Shown here: piece by piece, positions 26,478 through 35,717 of the stretch
Numbering within the stretch: position 1 is the stretch's first letter
Layout: each line of letters opens with the position of its first letter
Source of the DNA: Clostridiales bacterium
Lineage (GTDB): Bacteria > Actinomycetota > Coriobacteriia > Anaerosomatales > SLCP01
Length of the DNA: 59,289 bases
Reading direction: 5' to 3'
Assembly: GCA_018333995.1 (NCBI GenBank)
Contig: JAGXSG010000008.1
Span: 1-59,289, forward strand
Program-made: the position numbers and the translations under genes
The notes under the pieces: model-generated
Database searches by the model: none
The model's input: the letters and a program-made list of their open reading frames with translations, nothing else
Told to the model about the DNA's origin: nothing

Positions 26478-26554
26478 GCCCCCATCGTCTAGCGGCCAAG
26501 GACGCCGTCCTTCTCGGGACGGAGACGGAGATTCGAATTCTCCTGGGGGCACCA
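26478..26554 (+). tRNA. tRNA-Glu (CTC), anomalous 8-nt anticodon loop, possibly inactive
   Basis: Acceptor GCCCCCA/TGGGGGC, D-arm and T-arm (GGAGA/TCTCC) and encoded CCA are intact and nearly match tRNA-Glu(TTC) at 16021. The anticodon stem CCGTC/GACGG closes on eight bases (CTTCTCGG) instead of seven; removing one T at 26511-26512 gives a normal CTC loop. No promoter is visible immediately upstream, where the hsdR relic lies. Confidence 0.75.
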
Positions 26555-26606
26555 GTATGCATCCACGTGCCAGACGCATGTCGGGGAGCGAGACGCACGC
26601 GGTGTG

Positions 26607-27719
26607 TTACTCGCGAGTGAGCACCATCGTACCGAGCGGGACCTGCGGAAAGAGTTCGAGTACGTCACGGTTGTACATCCGGACACACCCGTTCGAAGCC
26701 ATCGTGCCGATGCTCGCGGGGTTGTTGGTGCCGTGGATGTTGTAGGCGGTGTAGGTGAATCCGTTTGCTGTGCGCCGATACATACGTAGCTTGCGTGGGC
26801 CGTAGATGCCGTTTGGGTCGGTGTAGTACTTAGAGTCGATTCGCCAGACCGCCACCGGCGTCTGGGTGCTTGGCTTGCCGATCGCTACCGGATACGACTT
26901 CACAAGGTTGCCACCGACGATCCAGTACAGACGAAAGTCGGACTTGTCGATTACGATGCACGTAGGCCACGGCCACGGTGTGCCAACTGAAAAATCCCGG
27001 TACTCGTACGCGGCGGGATACTCGGCGTTCCCGCTGTATGACGCGCCGATGCGCCACACCCCCGCGTATGGCACCGTCACATCGGCCACGTACCGTGTCC
27101 TGGTCGGCGTCCATCCGCTCCATCGTGCGCTTACCGTTTTCTGGAGCACCCACTCGCCGTGAATCCTCTGGTAGAACAGCAGCCGTATGGGGCCTATGGC
27201 CGCTTTCCTATCCACGCTGCCGGTCACGCCAAACACCGAGTTGCGCGTCACAGGCACAGGTACATTTGGGGCCGAGAGGTTCGCCCCTGGATCGGGGGCC
27301 ACGCCAAAGTCCCGATACTCGTACGCGGCGGGGTACTCGGCGTTCCCGCTGTACGACGCGCCGATGCGCCACACCCCCGCGTATGGCACCGTCACATCGG
27401 CCACGTACCGTGTCCTGGTCGTTGTCCATCCGCTCCAACGCGCGCTTACCGTTTTCTGGAGCACCCACTCGCCGTGAATCCTCTGGTAGAACAGCAGCCG
27501 TATTGGGCCTATGGCCGCTTTCCTATCCACGCTGCCGGTCACGCCAATGAGACGATCTGCGTAAACCGTCGCGGGAACGTTGGGAGCCGAGAGATTCGCC
27601 GAGCTAGTGGCCTCGGTGGCGGCTGCGGAGGCGGCTCCTCTCGCGCCCGCTAGCATCATGATGGCAAGAATGGCGCACAGTAACACAACGGGACGGACGC
27701 ACCGGTACGCGGCGTGCAT
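26607..27719 (-). CDS. L,D-transpeptidase (YkuD) with two near-identical N-terminal repeat domains
   Basis: 370 residues. A signal peptide (VRPVVLLCAILAIMMLAG, ASAAA) is followed by two ~105-residue Ig-like or FN3-like units sharing SVDRKAAIGPIRLLFYQRIH, then GEWVLQKTVSARWSGW and YAGVWRIGASYSGNAEYP. The C-terminal YkuD domain (~255-370) has the catalytic motif HGTNNPASIG and SNGCVRMYN. It makes 3-3 peptidoglycan cross-links or attaches proteins to the wall, acting outside the membrane. The repeat units probably hold it at the wall. Divergent from the ECF sigma gene with a 128-bp shared leader. Confidence 0.92.
   Translation of the reverse strand: MHAAYRCVRPVVLLCAILAIMMLAGARGAASAAATEATSSANLSAPNVPATVYADRLIGVTGSVDRKAAIGPIRLLFYQRIHGEWVLQKTVSARWSGWTTTRTRYVADVTVPYAGVWRIGASYSGNAEYPAAYEYRDFGVAPDPGANLSAPNVPVPVTRNSVFGVTGSVDRKAAIGPIRLLFYQRIHGEWVLQKTVSARWSGWTPTRTRYVADVTVPYAGVWRIGASYSGNAEYPAAYEYRDFSVGTPWPWPTCIVIDKSDFRLYWIVGGNLVKSYPVAIGKPSTQTPVAVWRIDSKYYTDPNGIYGPRKLRMYRRTANGFTYTAYNIHGTNNPASIGTMASNGCVRMYNRDVLELFPQVPLGTMVLTRE
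26995..27230. repeat. 236-bp direct repeat, copy 1 (within the L,D-transpeptidase gene)
   Basis: Nearly identical to 27310-27545, with about eight differences by eye and a 315-bp (105-codon) offset. This is a recent in-frame domain duplication. Confidence 0.92.
27310..27545. repeat. 236-bp direct repeat, copy 2 (within the L,D-transpeptidase gene)
   Basis: Partner of 26995-27230. The frame is kept across both copies. Confidence 0.92.
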
Positions 27720-27847
27720 GGCGGCTCCTTGCGGACTCGTGGTGCGGCGGCGATCACGTGAGTGCCGCCGTCCTCATGCTTATTATGCGATCGTCAGCTC
27801 GAGAATGCGATGATTCAATCACGTGTGTTGGGCTTCGGGAGCTGTTC

Positions 27848-28411
27848 ATGCCTACAAGTGGTCCATTCGAGTCGGTCCTCATCGCTGCCAGGCATGGTGC
27901 CGAGTGGGCATGGGAGCGCCTCGTTGGCGATCTTGACGGCTCGCTGCGTGGATACGTGCGTCGACAGGGCGGTGTGGATGTCGACGATCTGTTGGGTGAG
28001 ACATGGCTTCAAGTAGCCAGAGGACTAACGCGTTTCTCTGGTGACGAGGCGGCGTTTCGTTCCTGGGTGTTCATGATCGCTCACCATCGTATCGTCGACG
28101 AACGGCGACGCATCAGGCGCAAGCGCGTCGATAGCGTTGAAGCGATCGTTCTCGATGAGGCCGCGACGGAGGTACGCTCGGCGGAGTCAGAAGCCATCGA
28201 GCGCATGGCCGACGAGGAACTCCTGCGGATGCTAGACATGCTCCCGCAGGACCAGCGTGAGGTTATCGTCCTGCGATTCGTCGCTTGTTTCGGCGTCACC
28301 GAAATCGCGCGTATCGTCGGTAAATCACCGGGAGCGGTCAGGGCTCTTCAGCGCCGGGCGTTGAGGCGCCTTGAGAAAATTCTTGGCGAAGGCGGTACGT
28401 TTTCGCCGTAG
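27848..28411 (+). CDS. ECF-family RNA polymerase sigma factor
   Basis: About 187 residues from ATG 27848 (GGGAGC upstream). Sigma-2 region: VDDLLGETWLQVARGLTRFS (DxxxEtw core) and FRSWVFMIAHHRIVDERRR. Sigma-4 region: MLPQDQREVIVLRFVACFG and VTEIARIVGKSPGAVRALQ. This is the ECF layout without sigma-3. The next gene, 21 nt downstream, looks like its anti-sigma factor. Its target promoters are unknown; the divergent L,D-transpeptidase is a candidate regulon member. Confidence 0.93.
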   Translation: MPTSGPFESVLIAARHGAEWAWERLVGDLDGSLRGYVRRQGGVDVDDLLGETWLQVARGLTRFSGDEAAFRSWVFMIAHHRIVDERRRIRRKRVDSVEAIVLDEAATEVRSAESEAIERMADEELLRMLDMLPQDQREVIVLRFVACFGVTEIARIVGKSPGAVRALQRRALRRLEKILGEGGTFSP

Positions 28412-28432
28412 CGTGTCGGTAACGGGAGTGAG

Positions 28433-29248
28433 ATGAAACGTTCGAAGCGATACTACGACGAGTGGGCGGAACGGCTAGCTGCCGGTAACCGTGACCCTGG
28501 CGATGAGGACGCGGTATCGGCGTTCGTCACTTTGCTGCGGTCCGGTCTGGCTGACGAGCCGGCCGATTCGCAGTTGCCCGCGACTCTCGCAGCGGAGGTG
28601 CTGCGCTTTGCCGAGGACGTTCCAGACCGTACCCGTACGGTGAGGCGCCGAACAGTGCGACCCCTCACGATGAGATGGAGGCGACGCGCCATGATCAGCA
28701 CATTTCTTTCGACGTTGCTCGGCAAGATCGTGGCTGGTGGTCTCGCCGTTGCGGTTGCGGCCACGGGTGCCGCAGCCACCGGTACTCTGCCTGACGCCGC
28801 TCAGCAGCGGGCCGCAGACGCTTTCGGAGGAATCGGTATCGAAGTTCCCGCTCCGGACCGCGCTCCTGAGGAAGGCATCGGCGACGGAACCGATTATCAG
28901 GACGACGGCACGGTTGCGGGCAGTCGCGAGACGACCCCCCCGGTGCTTCCGGAGGAAGCCTCGGATACGGCAAAGGCGGTCATCGGCACGGTATTTGGTG
29001 GCGACCCTGCTGAAGGGCGCGACTTCGGTCAAGCCGTTGCCCGGACTGCCTCTGGTGGCGCTGTGAACGGAGTCCCGGAGACGCCGTCGGCACCCGATTC
29101 TCCCGTGATCCCGGATCGGCCTTCGGAGCCGGCCACACCAGGGAGCCCTGAGATCCCCAACAGGCCGGGAGTGCCGGGCATCCCCGAGCGGCCGGAAACC
29201 CCAGAGCTGCCCGATGACGCGAGCGAAGGGCTCGGACGTCGGCCGTAG
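28433..29248 (+). CDS. Probable membrane anti-sigma factor with Pro-rich extracellular tail
   Basis: 271 residues. The N-terminal ~80 residues are charged and helical (YYDEWAERLAAGN, LRSGLADEP), the position and character expected for a sigma-binding domain. Residues ~85-115 hold one hydrophobic segment (GKIVAGGLAVAVAATGAA). The remainder is acidic and Pro-rich, ending in a P-x-x-P-E/D repeat (SPVIPDRPSEPATPGSPEIP and on to residue 270). I recognise no domain name; the anti-sigma role rests on gene order and topology. Confidence 0.7.
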   Translation: MKRSKRYYDEWAERLAAGNRDPGDEDAVSAFVTLLRSGLADEPADSQLPATLAAEVLRFAEDVPDRTRTVRRRTVRPLTMRWRRRAMISTFLSTLLGKIVAGGLAVAVAATGAAATGTLPDAAQQRAADAFGGIGIEVPAPDRAPEEGIGDGTDYQDDGTVAGSRETTPPVLPEEASDTAKAVIGTVFGGDPAEGRDFGQAVARTASGGAVNGVPETPSAPDSPVIPDRPSEPATPGSPEIPNRPGVPGIPERPETPELPDDASEGLGRRP

Positions 29249-29307
29249 TGACTGGGTGAACGACTCCACGCAACCCCGGTGTTAGAATGTCTCCCGCACC
29301 GCAAAAC

Positions 29308-29382
29308 GGGCGATTAACTCAGCGGGAGAGTGCCTCCCTTACAAGGAGGAAGCCGGGGGTTCAAATCCCTCATCGCCCACCA
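29308..29382 (+). tRNA. tRNA-Val (TAC), integration site of the mobile element
   Basis: GGGCGAT/ATCGCCC acceptor, anticodon stem CCTCC/GGAGG with loop CTTACAA, encoded CCA. The 3' end (29372-29384) is repeated at 35627-35639, and the recombinase frame terminates inside the tRNA on the opposite strand. TAGAAT at 29283-29288 is a likely -10 element. Confidence 0.97.
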
Positions 29383-30825
29383 TGGATGACAAAACGCCCC
29401 TTCGGGATCTCTGCGGAGATACTCGAAGGGGCGTTTTAGCTGGTAGGAGCCGATGGCGCAGTCGGTGAGCTCTGCGTTCAAAACCACGGCAGCAAGAAGG
29501 CGGCGCTTGCCCTCGGTGTCAGCGGTCGCGAACTGCGAGCGAGCGCCCATCGCAGCCCTGGCTACCGCTTCTACCTGTGCGGTCTTGTCAGTCGTGCCGC
29601 ACTTGAGAGCCGAGAGGCGGCGTTCGAGAGTGCGCCGGGTCTCTGCGATCTCGCCAGCCTTCACACGGTACGCATCGACAAGAACGATCCCGTCGAGGTA
29701 GGAGTCCAGGAGCTTTGAAGCTTTGGAGTCGAGCTCTGCGATCTTGCGCGTGAGCTCTGAGCGCTGCTGGTCGTGCGTCTCGATCTCGTGCTCATCGAGG
29801 GCGCGGGAGTCCCGCACGAGCATGTCTACGATCTCAGGCGTGATCTCGATCTCGGCAAGCACCGTTTCGAGCTGATCGAGCAGGAGCTCTTCGCGTGTGT
29901 AGCTGCGCTGAGAGCATGCCTCCTTGCCCTTGCCCTTGGTGCAGCGGTAGTAGACGTAGCCCTTCTGGCGCTCTGCGGTGATCTTGCAGCCGCACTCACC
30001 GCACACGAGGTAGTCGCGAAGCGCAAAGGTGTGCTTGGTGCGCTTGGGGCCGGTCTGGCGAGGGGAGAAGACCTGCTGCACGCGCTCGAAGAGCTCACGA
30101 GCTATCAAGGGCTCGTGAGCTCCGGGATAGGTCTGGCCTTTGTAGCGGACGTCCCCGCAATAGATCGGGTTTCTCAGAAGCACATGGAGCATGGAGGCGG
30201 TAAACGGTCTGCCTGATCGTGAGCGGTAGCCGTGTCCGTTGAGATCGCGCGCGAGATCGGCAAGGGAGATGTTGCCAGCCGCATAGCGCTCGAAGGCAGC
30301 GCGCACCATCGGAGCGGTCGCGGGATCGGGGATGATCGAACGGGTCTCGCGGTCGTTCACGTAGCCGGTCGGCGCGCGGTGAGGCCAGCCGCCTTGCGCC
30401 ACCTTTTCGTCCATGCCCTTCTTGACCTCTTCGCGCAGGTTCCCGAGGTAAAACTTCGCGACCGAGAGGTTCACGTCACGCAGGAGCTCGCCTTGCGGAG
30501 TATCGGGAATGTCACCGACGACATAGCGCGCTTTGACCCCGAGGTCTTCGAGCGTGATCTGATCGCGGAAGTTGCGGTAGAGCCGATCGAGCTTGTGGGC
30601 GACAACGATACGCACGTCCGGGTGCGCTTTGAGGTAGGAGACCATTTCGGCGAAGCGGGTGCGCCCCGCCTTGCCAGCGCTTTCGGCTTCGATGAACTCG
30701 GCGACAGGACTAATCCCCTGGGCCTCACAGAAGGCGCGTATGGCCTTTGTCTGCGCCGGAATGGAATAGCCCTCCGCCTGCTGCTCCTTCGTGCTCACGC
30801 GGGCGTAGATGACGCATGCAGCCAT
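29314..30825 (-). CDS. Large serine recombinase (integrase) of the tRNA-Val element
   Basis: 503 residues. Resolvase domain: VIYARVSTKEQQAEGYSI with the nucleophile Ser in ARVST, then VAHKLDRLYRN. Recombinase domain: GWPHRAPTGYVNDRET, LHVLLRNPIYCGDV. Zinc ribbon: YLVCGECGCKIT and YRCTKGKGKEACSQRSY. A coiled-coil follows. The last ~22 residues (MRDLNPRLPPCKGGTLPLS) are the antisense of tRNA-Val, and the stop lies in the tRNA. ATG 30825 overlaps the TGA of the rep gene. Expected role is integration and excision of the surrounding element; serine integrases seldom use tRNA genes. Confidence 0.93.
   Translation of the reverse strand: MAACVIYARVSTKEQQAEGYSIPAQTKAIRAFCEAQGISPVAEFIEAESAGKAGRTRFAEMVSYLKAHPDVRIVVAHKLDRLYRNFRDQITLEDLGVKARYVVGDIPDTPQGELLRDVNLSVAKFYLGNLREEVKKGMDEKVAQGGWPHRAPTGYVNDRETRSIIPDPATAPMVRAAFERYAAGNISLADLARDLNGHGYRSRSGRPFTASMLHVLLRNPIYCGDVRYKGQTYPGAHEPLIARELFERVQQVFSPRQTGPKRTKHTFALRDYLVCGECGCKITAERQKGYVYYRCTKGKGKEACSQRSYTREELLLDQLETVLAEIEITPEIVDMLVRDSRALDEHEIETHDQQRSELTRKIAELDSKASKLLDSYLDGIVLVDAYRVKAGEIAETRRTLERRLSALKCGTTDKTAQVEAVARAAMGARSQFATADTEGKRRLLAAVVLNAELTDCAIGSYQLKRPFEYLRRDPEGAFCHPWWAMRDLNPRLPPCKGGTLPLS
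29372..29384 (+). repeat. att core, left copy (tRNA-Val 3' end)
   Basis: ATCGCCCACCATG, identical to 35627-35639. Confidence 0.85.
29391..29437. terminator. Two-tiered hairpin after tRNA-Val
   Basis: AAAACGCCCCTTCG pairs with its complement 29424-29437 around a small inner ATCTC/GAGAT hairpin. It lies inside the recombinase gene and ends in TTTT, so it can terminate tRNA-Val transcription. Confidence 0.7.
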
Positions 30826-31874
30826 CAGAACGGCACCCCCTGCTCTGCGATCTGGCGAGCTCGGGCCTTAGCGACGAGCTCGGCGAACTCGATTCCGCGA
30901 TCTGCGAGTTGCAGCTCTGCGAGGGGCAAGGCGTACTCCATCACAGAGAGCAGATCGTCTTGATCGCAGTATGCCCCGAGAGCGGCGAGCGCACCATAGA
31001 GCCGGGCGATGACCCGCTCTTCGTGTTCTGCGCGAGAGGCGTAGCGCACGCGGGGTTCCGGAGCAGACGCGCCCCAGAGCTCGCGCAGCGTTGCCCAGAC
31101 CGGATCGACCGGCCAGCGCGTCTTGTTGCCATCGGTCGGGATGCGAAGCTCGGCCCACGTCATGCCGAAGGCAAACAGCCGCGGAAGCTTGGCAAAGGCG
31201 GTGGCGACCGCGCGCGCATTGAGCTCGTTGAGCACATCTCCGCGAAGCTGCACTTCGAAACGCCAGACAGCACGCGACGGATCGTAGTGCGCCACGCGCT
31301 CCCAGACTTTTGCATATGCGGTCTTCTTCTTGGCCGCAAGCTCAGCGTCTTTGCGGTAGATGCGAAGCACCACATCACCCTTGCCGATCTGGTAGGAGAT
31401 ACCTTCGCCCTCTTCGGTCTTCTGGCGAAAGCTTGCCGGGCAGACGATCCGTTCGATATCGCCACAACCCGGCTCCCAGCCGTGCACATCGAGGCACAGA
31501 TCGATCCGGGAGAGCGTGTAGGGCTTGTCCGCACCGAGAGCGGCGGCCAGGCGCGTTGCGCGTTCGTAGAGGGGCTCGTGGCCGCAGGTGGCAAGTGATG
31601 CGGCGAACAGGCGCACCGAGACAGGCGGGATGCCCTTCTGGGCAATCGAGACGCGCAGCTGCATATCGGCATCTGAGAGCACGAAGCGGTACTTCCCGAG
31701 CCCTTTGGGGGAGACGAAGAGCTCGTGATCTGCGATCCGGTAGCTTTGCGCCTCGTCGGTAAGCTGCGCGCGGTCCTTCGCCTCCTGGAGTGTGGCGACG
31801 AATCTGTCTTCGAGCTCACCGGCAAAGGTGGCTTCCAACGTGTCCACACCGCAGTAGAGGAGAGAGATCGTCAC
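30825..31874 (-). CDS. Rep_trans-like replication initiation (or relaxase) protein
   Basis: 349 residues, GTG start overlapping the preceding gene by 4 bp. Motifs fitting replication initiation factor family PF02486: YCGVDTLEATF at the N-terminus, LSRIDLCLDVHG (RxDxxxD), VVLRIYRKDAEL with a candidate catalytic Tyr, and VWRFEVQLRG. These rolling-circle proteins nick the origin for plasmid or element replication. It lies upstream of the recombinase with overlapping stop/start (TGATG), so excision and replication genes are co-expressed. The family call is from motifs only. Confidence 0.72.
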   Translation of the reverse strand: MTISLLYCGVDTLEATFAGELEDRFVATLQEAKDRAQLTDEAQSYRIADHELFVSPKGLGKYRFVLSDADMQLRVSIAQKGIPPVSVRLFAASLATCGHEPLYERATRLAAALGADKPYTLSRIDLCLDVHGWEPGCGDIERIVCPASFRQKTEEGEGISYQIGKGDVVLRIYRKDAELAAKKKTAYAKVWERVAHYDPSRAVWRFEVQLRGDVLNELNARAVATAFAKLPRLFAFGMTWAELRIPTDGNKTRWPVDPVWATLRELWGASAPEPRVRYASRAEHEERVIARLYGALAALGAYCDQDDLLSVMEYALPLAELQLADRGIEFAELVAKARARQIAEQGVPF

Positions 31875-32080
31875 GTCTTCTCATCCTCTGGTCTGTAAAC
31901 AGAATCCCCCATGTTATAAGCGGCGGGGGATTCGAGACCCTCTGTGCCAGGCGCGAGCAGACCGTCAGCGATCAGATCGATGAGCAGGATCGAGAGTGCG
32001 CGTGCTTCGCGTGCGCTCAGGGCGCATCCGCGCCCTTGGAGCTCGGCGCGAAGCTCCGCGCCCACCTCGTGTCTGCCCAT
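31871..32080 (-). CDS. Small protein, first gene of the rep-recombinase operon
   Basis: 69 residues with a strong SD (GGAGGTG, six to seven nt before ATG 32080) and an overlapping stop/start with rep. The helix-rich sequence (ALSAREARALSILLIDLIAD) has no recognised domain. Position suggests a replication or copy-control accessory. Confidence 0.7.
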   Translation of the reverse strand: MGRHEVGAELRAELQGRGCALSAREARALSILLIDLIADGLLAPGTEGLESPAAYNMGDSVYRPEDEKT

Positions 32081-32139: not shown

Positions 32140-32964
32140 TCAGCCCTTCGGGGACTTGTAGTCGAAGATTATGTCCCCGCGTCGTGCTGTGCGGATCGCG
32201 AGCTTCTTGATCCGTTCGGTCTCTTTGGTCGCAAGCCAGGTGTAGTGCTCGAACTCCTCGTCATCGTCGGATGCGAGCAGATCGGGATAGAGCTCAGTGA
32301 TGTTGTCGTGTGCGATCTGCTCGAAGGTCTGACCCTCCTGATTGAGGCGGTAGTAGCGCGCACCTTCTGCCGCCTTGCCGCTTCGCTTGGCAAAGGCGGC
32401 ATCGGGGAACGCGGCCTGCGCCTCTTCTTCAAACCATTCCATGAGCGCGGACACGTCAGAGGCAGGCGTGGCGATCAGGAGCACGAGCGGGCTCTTCTCG
32501 CCTTCAGGTCCGATGTCGGCCCGGTAGACGGTTCCGCCGTAGGAGGCGAGCATCGGTGCGGCCTCGCCTGTCGAGGCGTACGTCCAGATCGCGTCTTCGA
32601 GCCACTGGTCGAAGCCGATCTTGTCGAGGAAATGATCGAGGGTCGGCCCGAGGCGGTTCGCCGGAGCGCGGCTGGCGATGTAGTCGGCAAGAGCGAGCAG
32701 GAGGCGGCGGAGGCGCACTCGCTGGACCTTACGCGAGAGGCCGGGGAAGAGCTGACGCTTGAGGGTGAGCCCGTCAGACTCCAGCCGGGAACGGATGCGC
32801 TGGCGGACCTGCTCTTCGGTGAGTCCCGCTTCTAGTTGCTTTCGGGCCCACTTAGCGTAGTCCCGGAACCCTGGCGCGGCAGCGAGCAGGTTTCCGTGCG
32901 CGAGGCTCTCGATCAGGACTCGCTCTTTGGGCGGTTTTCGTATCTTGTACTTTGGCATGGCCAT
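32140..32964 (-). CDS. Element-encoded protein of unknown function
   Basis: About 275 residues from the ATG at 32964 (a second ATG is two codons later); the in-frame extension to 33081 has no RBS. It is soluble and mixed alpha/beta: KYKIRKPPKERVLIES, ARKQLEAGLTEEQVRQRIRS, KVQRVRLRRLLLALADYIAS, VLLIATPASDVSALMEWFEE, and a C-terminal GDIIFDYKSPKG. I do not recognise the family. It faces away from the 63-residue gene over a short leader with a 12-nt direct repeat. Candidate cargo, possibly anti-phage or regulatory, but this is not shown by sequence. Confidence 0.65.
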   Translation of the reverse strand: MAMPKYKIRKPPKERVLIESLAHGNLLAAAPGFRDYAKWARKQLEAGLTEEQVRQRIRSRLESDGLTLKRQLFPGLSRKVQRVRLRRLLLALADYIASRAPANRLGPTLDHFLDKIGFDQWLEDAIWTYASTGEAAPMLASYGGTVYRADIGPEGEKSPLVLLIATPASDVSALMEWFEEEAQAAFPDAAFAKRSGKAAEGARYYRLNQEGQTFEQIAHDNITELYPDLLASDDDEEFEHYTWLATKETERIKKLAIRTARRGDIIFDYKSPKG

Positions 32965-32986
32965 GGCACAGACATTACATGATGGG

Positions 32987-33014
32987 CCTGACAAGATGTG
33001 CCCCTGACAGGATG
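32987..33014. repeat. Tandem 12-nt direct repeat in a divergent leader
   Basis: CCTGACAAGATG (32987-32998) and CCTGACAGGATG (33003-33014), 16 nt apart, between divergent genes; a possible operator pair. Confidence 0.45.
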
Positions 33015-33058
33015 CATGCCACGTAGAGCTTGAGGTAAGCTGTTTAGCGAGGTCTACG

Positions 33059-33250
33059 ATGATGGCGAGTGAGGGGGACAACGTGAGAGAGTTGCCTATG
33101 TCTGGTGCCCTAAGCGCAATTCATGAGGAGGCACTGAGACTGCTCGAGTACGAAATGCCGAAGGAGGTCCGGGAAGGTCTCGCGCTCATAATCTCAATCG
33201 CGCGCCATCAGGCCGATGTACGGAATGAAGCCGAGCGTTCCGCGGGCTGA
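33059..33250 (+). CDS. Small protein of unknown function
   Basis: 63 residues; ATG 33059 (second ATG at 33062) follows GAGGT. The sequence is helical and acidic-amphipathic (IHEEALRLLEYEMPKEVREG, LALIISIARHQADV). Size and position opposite an unknown gene recall antitoxin or accessory proteins, with no direct evidence. Confidence 0.5.
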   Translation: MMASEGDNVRELPMSGALSAIHEEALRLLEYEMPKEVREGLALIISIARHQADVRNEAERSAG

Positions 33251-33278: not shown

Positions 33279-33704
33279 ATGAACCACGAAGAATCCGACC
33301 CGCAGCGGCGCGACGCAGTTCTTGCTCTCGTTCTGGGGACACTGGGTACCTGGGCTCTCCCGCGCTTTCTGCTGGTGCCCCTATTCGAGGCTTTTGGACT
33401 GACATTTGGCTGGTGGACTTACGTAATCGTATTCGTCGCAGGAACGGCTGGTGTCTACGAGGCGGTTGCCAAGCCGAGAGCTGTGGAAGTCATTGCGTAC
33501 GGTCCGCCGAGGGGCACTGCTACTAAGTCCCGCGACTACTGTCCTGGGTGTGGTCATCAGTTGTTGGACTCAGACTCGTACTGCTCAGGCTGCGGCCAAG
33601 CCCTTCAATCCCACGACGATAGGAAGCCGTGGTTGATACATCGCCGTCGTCAGTCGTCCCCGTGGACACAGGTGTTGCACGCTAGGCCCTTCGCATATCT
33701 GTAG
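33279..33704 (+). CDS. Membrane protein with zinc-ribbon tail
   Basis: 141 residues, GGAGAG SD before ATG 33279. Two hydrophobic segments (~15-40 and 45-62) precede a zinc-ribbon pattern DYCPGCGHQLL / SYCSGCGQAL (CPxC...CSxC, ~88-112). The tail ends near the inner att-like site. Function is unknown. Confidence 0.72.
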   Translation: MNHEESDPQRRDAVLALVLGTLGTWALPRFLLVPLFEAFGLTFGWWTYVIVFVAGTAGVYEAVAKPRAVEVIAYGPPRGTATKSRDYCPGCGHQLLDSDSYCSGCGQALQSHDDRKPWLIHRRRQSSPWTQVLHARPFAYL

Positions 33705-33783: not shown

Positions 33784-35550
33784 ATGAGTGAAATCGGGCA
33801 ACTCACACAGACCTACACCAAGTCTGGCCTGCCGCGATTTGCTGTTGAGGTGGCGCATGGTGAGTTGCACAAGTACCAGGTAATCAAAGGCGACAGCCAA
33901 CAGGTTGTGTGGACGCGGGCTCTCGCCAAGGCTGCTGAGTGGGACAGCATGTGGCAGCGGCGGATTGACGCCGAAGAGCGCAAACTGCTGCGGGCACTAG
34001 CGGCGCAAGAGGTCGCGGACAACAGACAGACGGCCTTCGAACGGACTGCAGAGGCCAGGGCCGAGATCGACGCACTCGGCTCTATACTGCAAACGGCGCT
34101 CGAGGCCAATTGCACCGTCGACTGGGAAGCTCTCAAGGACCGTTCTTCGTTTCCCGTCCCACGGCCCGAATCCCCCAAACCGCCGGCCGAACCCGTGAAG
34201 CCGCAGCCCCATCCTGAGCCGACCCAAGAGGCTTTCAACCCCAAGTTCGGGGTGCTTGACTACTTCAGTGCCACAAGACGACAGACCCGACAAGGCGCAG
34301 CGGCAGCTGCATTCGCAGCGGCACACGCCGAGTGGGAGCAGAGCATCCGCGATCAGGAGGCCGCATACGCAGCTGCAGTCGAAGCTCGTGCAGCGGCTGA
34401 ACGAGCTAACGCCGAGCAGCATGCGCGTGAAATAGAGGAATGGGAGCGACAGAAGCAGCAGTACTGTGCGCAGCAGCACGCTGAGCACATTGCGATTGAC
34501 GAGCGGGCGGAGCGTTATCGGACGGGCATCCCTCGCGCGATTGAAAGCTATTGCTGCCGGGTCCTTGACACGTCGGAATACCCCGATTGTTTTCCTCAGG
34601 AGTACGAGCTTGAGTATCTACCATCAAGCAGAATGCTCGTTATCGACTACCAACTGCCATCGCCTCAAGACTTGCCGACCGTTGTTGAGGTCTCCTACAT
34701 TGCTTCGCGCGATGAGTTTCGAGAGAAGACCGTTTCCGAGCGTCAGCTATCACAGATATACGAGAGCGTCCTTTACCAGACGGTATTGAGGACTCTTCAC
34801 GAGCTATTCGAGTCCGACACGATACAGGCAATAGAAGCTGTCAACATAAATGGATGGGTCCAATCGGTTGACCCCTCCACAGGGAAGTCCGAGGACTCCT
34901 GCGTCCTGTCCGTCCGAGCGATGAGGACTGAGTTCCTGCAGATGGACCTGGCGCACGTTGATCCAAAAGCCTGCTTCAAGAAGCTGCGCGGCGTGAGTGC
35001 GTCGCGAATACACTCACTCACGCCGGTGGCGCCTCTCCTAACGATGTCTCGTGAAGACAAACGATTCACAACATCCTACGAAGTCGCGGCGCGGCTCTCG
35101 GAGGGGGAGAACATCGCGGCGATGGATTGGGAGGACTTTGAGCACCTGATTCGGGAGCTATTTGAAAAAGAATTCGCTGTACGAGGCGCTGAAGTGCGAG
35201 TTACGCAGGCCAGCAGAGACGGTGGAGTCGACGCAGTCATTTTCGACCCAGACCCGCTGCACGGTGGCAAGACCGTTGTACAGGCCAAGAGGTACACCAA
35301 CACGGTGAGCGTTAGCGCCGTCCGCGATCTGTACGGGACCATGATGAATGAGGGAGCCAACAAGGGTATCTTGGTAACCACCGCCGAGTACGGACCTGAT
35401 GCGTACGACTTCGCTACGGGTAAACCACTGGTCCTCCTCAATGGGGGCAATCTTCTACACCTGCTTGCGAAGCACGGGCACGTCGCGCGGATTGACCTGA
35501 AGGAGGCCAAGCTGCTTGGCGCGGATCAGGACCGACCACCAAGGGGCTGA
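33784..35550 (+). CDS. Mrr-type restriction endonuclease-like protein with coiled-coil N-terminus
   Basis: 588 residues, GGAGAG before ATG 33784. Residues ~60-250 are charged helices and likely coiled coil (Ala/Glu-rich, e.g. FAAAHAEWEQSIRDQEAAYA). The C-terminal ~130 residues form a Mrr_cat PD-(D/E)XK domain: MDWEDFEHLIRELFEKEF, QASRDGGVDAVIFDP (catalytic Asp), VVQAKRY (QxK), and GILVTTAEYGPDAYDFA. Mrr-type proteins cut modified DNA or act in defence. It is the only gene in the cassette bounded by the two att-like sites. Base composition looks lower in GC than flanking genes. Confidence 0.82.
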   Translation: MSEIGQLTQTYTKSGLPRFAVEVAHGELHKYQVIKGDSQQVVWTRALAKAAEWDSMWQRRIDAEERKLLRALAAQEVADNRQTAFERTAEARAEIDALGSILQTALEANCTVDWEALKDRSSFPVPRPESPKPPAEPVKPQPHPEPTQEAFNPKFGVLDYFSATRRQTRQGAAAAAFAAAHAEWEQSIRDQEAAYAAAVEARAAAERANAEQHAREIEEWERQKQQYCAQQHAEHIAIDERAERYRTGIPRAIESYCCRVLDTSEYPDCFPQEYELEYLPSSRMLVIDYQLPSPQDLPTVVEVSYIASRDEFREKTVSERQLSQIYESVLYQTVLRTLHELFESDTIQAIEAVNINGWVQSVDPSTGKSEDSCVLSVRAMRTEFLQMDLAHVDPKACFKKLRGVSASRIHSLTPVAPLLTMSREDKRFTTSYEVAARLSEGENIAAMDWEDFEHLIRELFEKEFAVRGAEVRVTQASRDGGVDAVIFDPDPLHGGKTVVQAKRYTNTVSVSAVRDLYGTMMNEGANKGILVTTAEYGPDAYDFATGKPLVLLNGGNLLHLLAKHGHVARIDLKEAKLLGADQDRPPRG

Positions 35551-35605: not shown

Positions 35606-35626
35606 CCCGTTCGAAGCGCATCAACT

Positions 35627-35639
35627 ATCGCCCACCATG
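35627..35639 (+). repeat. att core, right copy
   Basis: ATCGCCCACCATG, repeat of the tRNA-Val 3' end at 29372-29384; marks the right end of the element. Confidence 0.85.
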
Positions 35640-35647
35640 AAACTCAG

Positions 35648-35679
35648 CGAGGCCCGTGGAGCAGCAGCCACGGGCCTCG
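35648..35679 (+). terminator. Ancestral tRNA-Val terminator
   Basis: 12-bp perfect stem (35648-35659 with 35668-35679) with an 8-nt loop, directly beyond the right att core. It probably served tRNA-Val before integration. Confidence 0.7.
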
Positions 35680-35717
35680 CGTATGAGTGCGTTGTCGCAC
35701 ACGACGCCCGCCGCAAA

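Follow-up and report, generated by a model that had tools for sequence, protein, structure and literature searches.

Large serine recombinases (LSRs) are not normally expected at tRNA genes; how, then, does the reading frame of one come to end inside an intact tRNA-Val? We addressed this question for a stretch of 59,289 nucleotides (here called the window) from contig JAGXSG010000008.1 of Clostridiales bacterium assembly GCA_018333995.1, in which an LSR gene (int) runs antisense into tRNA-Val(UAC). We consider it quite probable that the tRNA is the target of the recombinase itself. A 6.26-kb integrative element, consisting of a rep-int backbone and a type IV restriction gene, would have been inserted at the 3' end of tRNA-Val(UAC) by its own LSR, with recognition of the T-loop, borrowing of a stop codon and a terminator hairpin as proposed parts of the mechanism (Table 1).

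The tRNA is intact and its 3' end is repeated at the far boundary of the element, the arrangement that characterizes an integrative element at a tRNA 3' end. The repeated 13-mer, ATCGCCCACCATG, consists of the final 11 bases of the tRNA followed by TG. There are only two exact copies in the window, at 29372-29384 and 35627-35639; chance alone is expected to give matches with up to two mismatches in 59 kb, but no exact ones. The distance from repeat to repeat is 6,255 bp, in agreement with the sequence-only reading of this locus, which had noted a copy of the tRNA 3' end 6.3 kb away. The inverted arms place the crossover near the GG/GT of the core but lie half a base apart between clades, too far for an exact dinucleotide to be assigned.

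Comparison with empty tRNA-Val loci in relatives had been proposed as a check, and one such locus was found. In G005 (L137), which belongs to the same family and another genus, a tRNA-Val(tac) has a terminator-like hairpin of its own, and about 355 bp later, with no integrase between, come genes for DUF2325, FeoA-like, release-factor-like and ferredoxin proteins. These genes recur in the window, their order unchanged, just past the right repeat. Judged from this gene order, the G005 locus is the empty site; since the genus is another one, the base-by-base comparison of the junction is confined to the tRNA. G003 has an identical gene order after tRNA-Val, with 2.7 kb of other DNA at that spot. 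Some features of the material weigh against our interpretation of the element: its excision and integration are predicted from sequence, the compared genomes are mostly metagenome bins, and several element ends are cut by contig ends.

The product of int, 503 residues in length, gave Pfam matches to Resolvase (4.7e-24), Recombinase (2.2e-19) and Zn_ribbon_recom (3.6e-9), a PHROG integrase match (1.1e-89) and profile matches to PDB entries of the A118 integrase. When 10 homologues were aligned, S11, R9, D80-R81, R84 and C275/C278/C295/C304 were invariant. The presence of Resolvase, Recombinase and zinc-ribbon domains indicates a complete protein, and by its domain order and its conserved catalytic serine and zinc cysteines the predicted product is an LSR. 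The frame remains open into the tRNA, antisense, and takes its stop, TAA (minus strand, 29316-29314), from tRNA-Val. The ARAGORN call for the tRNA (29308-29382) and the open reading frame (ORF) of int (29314-30825, minus strand) therefore overlap as the sequence-only reading had described. A point mutation of the window copy was suspected as the origin of this stop, since relatives had been flagged as having a TGA inside int, but was rejected: the TGA of the relatives itself lies inside the tRNA, so the overlap of int and tRNA is general. The frame ends inside the tRNA because the attachment site of the element (attP) lies at the 3' end of int, a by-product seen across the family and not peculiar to the window copy.

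The association with tRNA genes extends well beyond this locus. Within the close clade (full-length integrases with 49-65% identity, the window included), 10/10 are placed at the 3' end of a gene for tRNA-Val, tRNA-Ile or tRNA-Ala; full-length homologues from relatives and public genomes end antisense in Val(cac), Val(gac), Ile(gat) and Ala(ggc) genes, and integrase remnants were found at Val (all three anticodons), Ala(tgc) and Pro tRNAs. In a tree calculated with IQ-TREE the 10-row clade of the window (support 100/100) is again 10/10 at tRNA, the surrounding wider clade is 24/26, and the tRNA label is clustered to a degree matched by 0/500 shuffles. A second clade, from viral contigs and about 30-37% identical to the query, contains 27 members with a readable 3' flank, and 26 of these run into a tRNA, usually tRNA-Pro. 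Since the A1 profile behind the wider searches left out the tRNA-coded tail, selection does not account for the association. Most relatives also gave short C-terminal matches (about residues 475-503); these are plain tRNA genes and were not counted as integrases. In the genome of the window itself, three tRNA-Val genes were found by similarity: one bears the element and the other two bear remnants. The one other full LSR sits at tRNA-Ala.

These results make it extremely improbable that the recombinase lies beside the tRNA by chance or as an ancestral scar, and acts at other sites or is a decayed passenger. In favour of such an explanation are the classical targets of LSRs, which are protein genes or intergenic sites, and the many remnants beside tRNA-Val in the order; it is contradicted, however, by exact repeats at both ends, by the empty site in a relative, by the counts in the close and second clades and by the catalytic and zinc-binding residues, which are intact in the alignment. 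With an empty site in G005 and homologous recombinases consistently at tRNA genes, neither of the outcomes that the sequence-only reading had named as speaking against it was found, and its proposal that tRNA-Val is the real attachment site is upheld. Its picture of a single unusual locus holds for the locus itself; the actual scope is wider, the property being one of the whole clade.

Some further arrangements at tRNA genes were observed. The other LSR of the same genome (L045, G000:C28:151218-152528) is more distant; its 643-aa open frame ends 64 bp inside tRNA-Ala(ggc), antisense, and a relative of it in G048 likewise ends in tRNA-Ala(ggc). In L008 and L048, tandem elements or remnants share a single tRNA-Val, with attP-like sites at about 0.9 and 2.2 kb and attL, the left attachment site, at 5.9 kb.

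What could the integrase recognize in tRNAs of different specificity? Counting offsets from T1 of the antisense core (TGGTSG...), the T-loop motif TTYGAAC begins 17 nt in on the tRNA, while in the far end of the element, the P' arm of attP, TTCGAAC begins 22 nt in. At this +22 offset the motif occurs in 7 independent arms, against 0.23 expected per offset: the window, two L008 ends, L011/L047, L024, the C7 element of the same genome (L043) and L092 of the Pro clade. An eighth arm was found in L146, also of the Pro clade. The motif in L092 is read in a different codon phase, which argues for a constraint on the DNA rather than on the protein tail. For the A118 integrase, Rutherford et al. showed that the motif of the zinc domain lies closer to the centre in attB, the target site, than in attP, by 5 bp (PMC3783163). 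We propose that the zinc domain of the integrase would read the universal T-loop, attB being read as CCA end plus T-loop, and that attP would carry its T-loop-like TTCGAAC 5 bp further out, as the zinc-domain model for LSRs requires. As the T-loop is common to tRNAs and has a mimic in attP, one enzyme lineage could then move between tRNA species. A motif excess at offset +26 was also seen and discarded; it came from conserved phage coding sequence without a tRNA core.

Alternatively, the integrase may target tRNA 3' ends through the acceptor/CCA core alone, with the TTCGAAC arm merely inherited. The TGGTSG core is indeed the strictly shared part, and the P' arms inside the Val clade are related by descent. 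What is more, the Val-type ends L050 and L167 have CTTGT in place of CTTCG at +22 and keep only the CTT of the motif, which is thus not invariant; this deviation makes the T-loop interpretation a strong hint and not proof. On the other hand, L092 and L146 of the distant Pro clade also have the motif at precisely +22, in unrelated surroundings and in a different phase of reading, and the offset matches the known attP/attB difference of LSRs. Recognition by the core alone therefore seems to us rather unlikely, and the data suggest T-loop mimicry in attP as a targeting mechanism. We see an even chance for the broader proposition that a wide group of LSRs recognizes tRNAs as a class (through zinc domain and T-loop, switching among Val, Ile, Ala, Pro and others), with int doubling as tRNA terminator and exchanging its C-terminus at each integration.

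Insertion would push the native terminator away from the tRNA, and we propose that the last codons of int, which form a hairpin, take its place when transcribed in the tRNA direction; with the displaced terminator replaced in this manner, the tRNA gene would stay functional. Compared with synonymous-codon shuffles encoding the same peptides in ten homologues, the hairpin is far more stable than expected (Stouffer Z -12.0 for the tRNA strand, -7.3 for the int strand). Pairs changed on both sides number 9/16, versus 4.6 in the shuffles. In the outer stem, most mismatches turn out to be G.U pairs if the tRNA strand is read, with 19 such cells versus 2 on the int strand. For the Pro-clade hairpin, two of the 18 rows listed were mis-cut, and most of the others again give the tRNA-strand signal.

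There are points that temper this conclusion. A generic terminator scan made no call at the hairpin (its U-run is only 4, and loop and stem rules apply), so that termination itself is something we infer, and the clade members are not independent in the hairpin statistics. The missing call and the short U-run would suit a DNA palindrome bound by the integrase as part of the P arm instead of an RNA terminator, and the hairpin sits where the zinc-domain motif of the P arm is expected. However, the G.U pairs are biased by strand and the free-energy signal is stronger for the tRNA strand, as would suit an RNA made in the direction of the tRNA, and we regard the palindrome as a minority possibility. 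The hairpin is probably selected as RNA in the tRNA transcript, most simply as the replacement terminator, to judge by these patterns of substitution; the roles of DNA P arm and RNA terminator may coexist.

The location of attP also has consequences for the protein. With attP at the very 3' end of int, the integrated gene would lack a stop of its own and borrow one from the tRNA antisense, so integration exchanges the C-terminal tail. For the window, the predicted tail is WWAIVDALRTG in the circle versus WWAMRDLNPRLPPCKGGTLPLS when integrated, each followed by the stop. A natural pair was found among tRNA-Asn integrases: L118 and L121 share 97.8% identity across 1.5 kb of int, yet one ends with the tRNA-coded WLPLPDSNGGPAD (integrated) and the other has an uninterrupted attP and a different tail of about 30 residues. 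Such a change could be a regulatory switch, with the circle form active and the integrated form different. The predicted difference in the circle and the tRNA-Asn pair would agree with this, and McMurdie et al. put forward the idea for DsiB (PMC3146451). We think it improbable, since the tRNA-coded residues 491-503 are predicted to be disordered, the tail differs between targets, and it is read in different phases in different clades; we regard the swap as a by-product.

The tRNA-Asn pair belongs to a phage group (L114-L122, L127) with another, distant LSR, in which the integrase tail differs between free and integrated forms and attP contains a 12-bp inverted repeat, ATAGTTCCCAGT/ACTGGGAACTAT. 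The 4.4-kb contig L167, with an uninterrupted attP-like site, was considered as a possible circle and rejected; it is not circular and looks like tandem remnants.

The A118/LI, phiC31 and Bxb1 integrases use protein-gene or other non-tRNA sites, and their int does not end in the target gene. They resemble the window integrase in domain order, in a C-terminal half with zinc ribbon and coiled coil, and in the 5-bp attP/attB shift of the zinc domain (PMC3783163). The rule that LSRs are not normally found at tRNA genes, from which the sequence-only reading started, needs refinement, as rare use of tRNA or transfer-messenger RNA (tmRNA) genes has been published (PMC3218068, PMC3146451, PMC4471427). 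A 2011 paper called tRNA use by serine recombinases rare, naming phiRSM1 and mycobacterial actinomycete integrative and conjugative elements (AICEs) at tRNA-Leu (PMC3218068). The phiRSM filamentous phages of Ralstonia (tRNA-Ser; PMC4471427) and these AICEs likewise have a serine recombinase at a tRNA gene, but involve single isotypes, other hosts and other element types. For mycobacterial prophages, the reported tRNA attB sites are used by tyrosine integrases (PMC10654092). The closest parallel is DsiB, the serine recombinase of the Dehalococcoides ssrA islands; according to the passages of McMurdie et al. (2011, PMC3146451) that treat it, an LSR-type integrase acts at a tRNA-like gene (tmRNA), the 3' end of the RNA forms a direct repeat, and the gene always overlaps attL with its 3' end and has no stop inside the island. 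Those passages describe no T-loop mimic or terminator role for DsiB. The window element differs from the ssrA insertions with their DsiA-DsiB module in its target, tRNA-Val, and in that no second recombinase was found among its genes with Pfam. Tyrosine-integrase elements at tRNAs (AICEs such as pSAM2; integrative and mobilizable elements) are similarly small, with Rep and int beside the tRNA 3' end and a repeat that restores the tRNA, but their recombinase and chemistry are unrelated.

LSRs at tRNA genes are thus known but rare, whereas the clades, the isotype switching and the T-loop mimicry look new: within an incomplete coverage of the literature, we found no paper on LSR clades that switch tRNA isotypes, on T-loop mimicry in attP or on a tRNA terminator inside int. 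Exceptions of clade size to the rule that serine integrases avoid tRNAs occur in both bacterial and viral contigs. Such elements will be overlooked or wrongly annotated by island finders that seek tyrosine integrases at tRNAs, or by annotation that cuts int off at the tRNA. If the zinc domain does read the T-loop, one could predict where these serine integrases land, namely in tRNA 3' ends, and they would serve to test how LSR specificity evolves between sites.

Table 1. Features of the element and its flanks, in window coordinates.
Feature	Position	Strand	Basis
tRNA-Val(UAC), intact, called tRNA-Val(tac); 3' part is the B arm of attL	29308..29382	+	ARAGORN
Large serine recombinase (integrase), 503 aa; last ~20 residues coded by tRNA antisense	29314..30825	-	ORF, Pfam
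T-loop motif, antisense TTTGAAC, 17 nt from core T1; proposed zinc-domain site in attB	29359..29365	-	sequence
attL core repeat ATCGCCCACCATG	29372..29384	+	repeat search
Hairpin within the 3' part of the int coding sequence, encoding KRPFEYLRRDPEGAF; P arm of attP, also proposed to replace the tRNA terminator	29391..29437	+	
Rep_trans-like replication initiator/relaxase candidate, directly upstream of int	30825..31874	-	Pfam (below cut-off), sibling elements
Small ORF, 69 aa; also upstream of rep in one sibling element (78% identity)	31871..32080	-	
313-aa ORF without family match; homologue 27% identical in G060 element	32140..33081	-	
141-aa ORF with zinc ribbon, cargo	33279..33704	+	
Mrr-type methyl-directed type IV restriction enzyme, 588 aa, cargo	33784..35550	+	PADLOC mREase_IV 1.2e-63
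T-loop mimic TTCGAAC, P' arm, 22 nt from core T1 (5 bp further than in tRNA)	35609..35615	-	
attR core repeat ATCGCCCACCATG, element right end	35627..35639	+	repeat search
Inverted repeat just beyond element; candidate native tRNA-Val terminator, displaced by insertion	35647..35680	+	sequence

The Pfam match of the Rep_trans-like protein is weak (E 1.8e-4, below the cut-off), and the rep gene adjoins int in sibling elements as well. No transfer gene was recognized in the element. The Mrr-type cargo is likely a defence gene.

Upstream of the element lies a tRNA-like gene (26478-26554) whose anticodon loop is unclear, ARAGORN listing it as 'tRNA-???' with an anticodon of two bases; it stands beside tRNA-Val in relatives too. 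In G001, G004, G006 and G008 it precedes tRNA-Val(tac) by 3-5 bp. The distance grows to 2.75 kb in the window (tRNA-Val starting at 29308), where the interval 26555-29307 holds a 370-aa ORF, an extracytoplasmic function (ECF) sigma factor and an ORF after it; by this comparison, the interval would represent a second insertion or a rearrangement.
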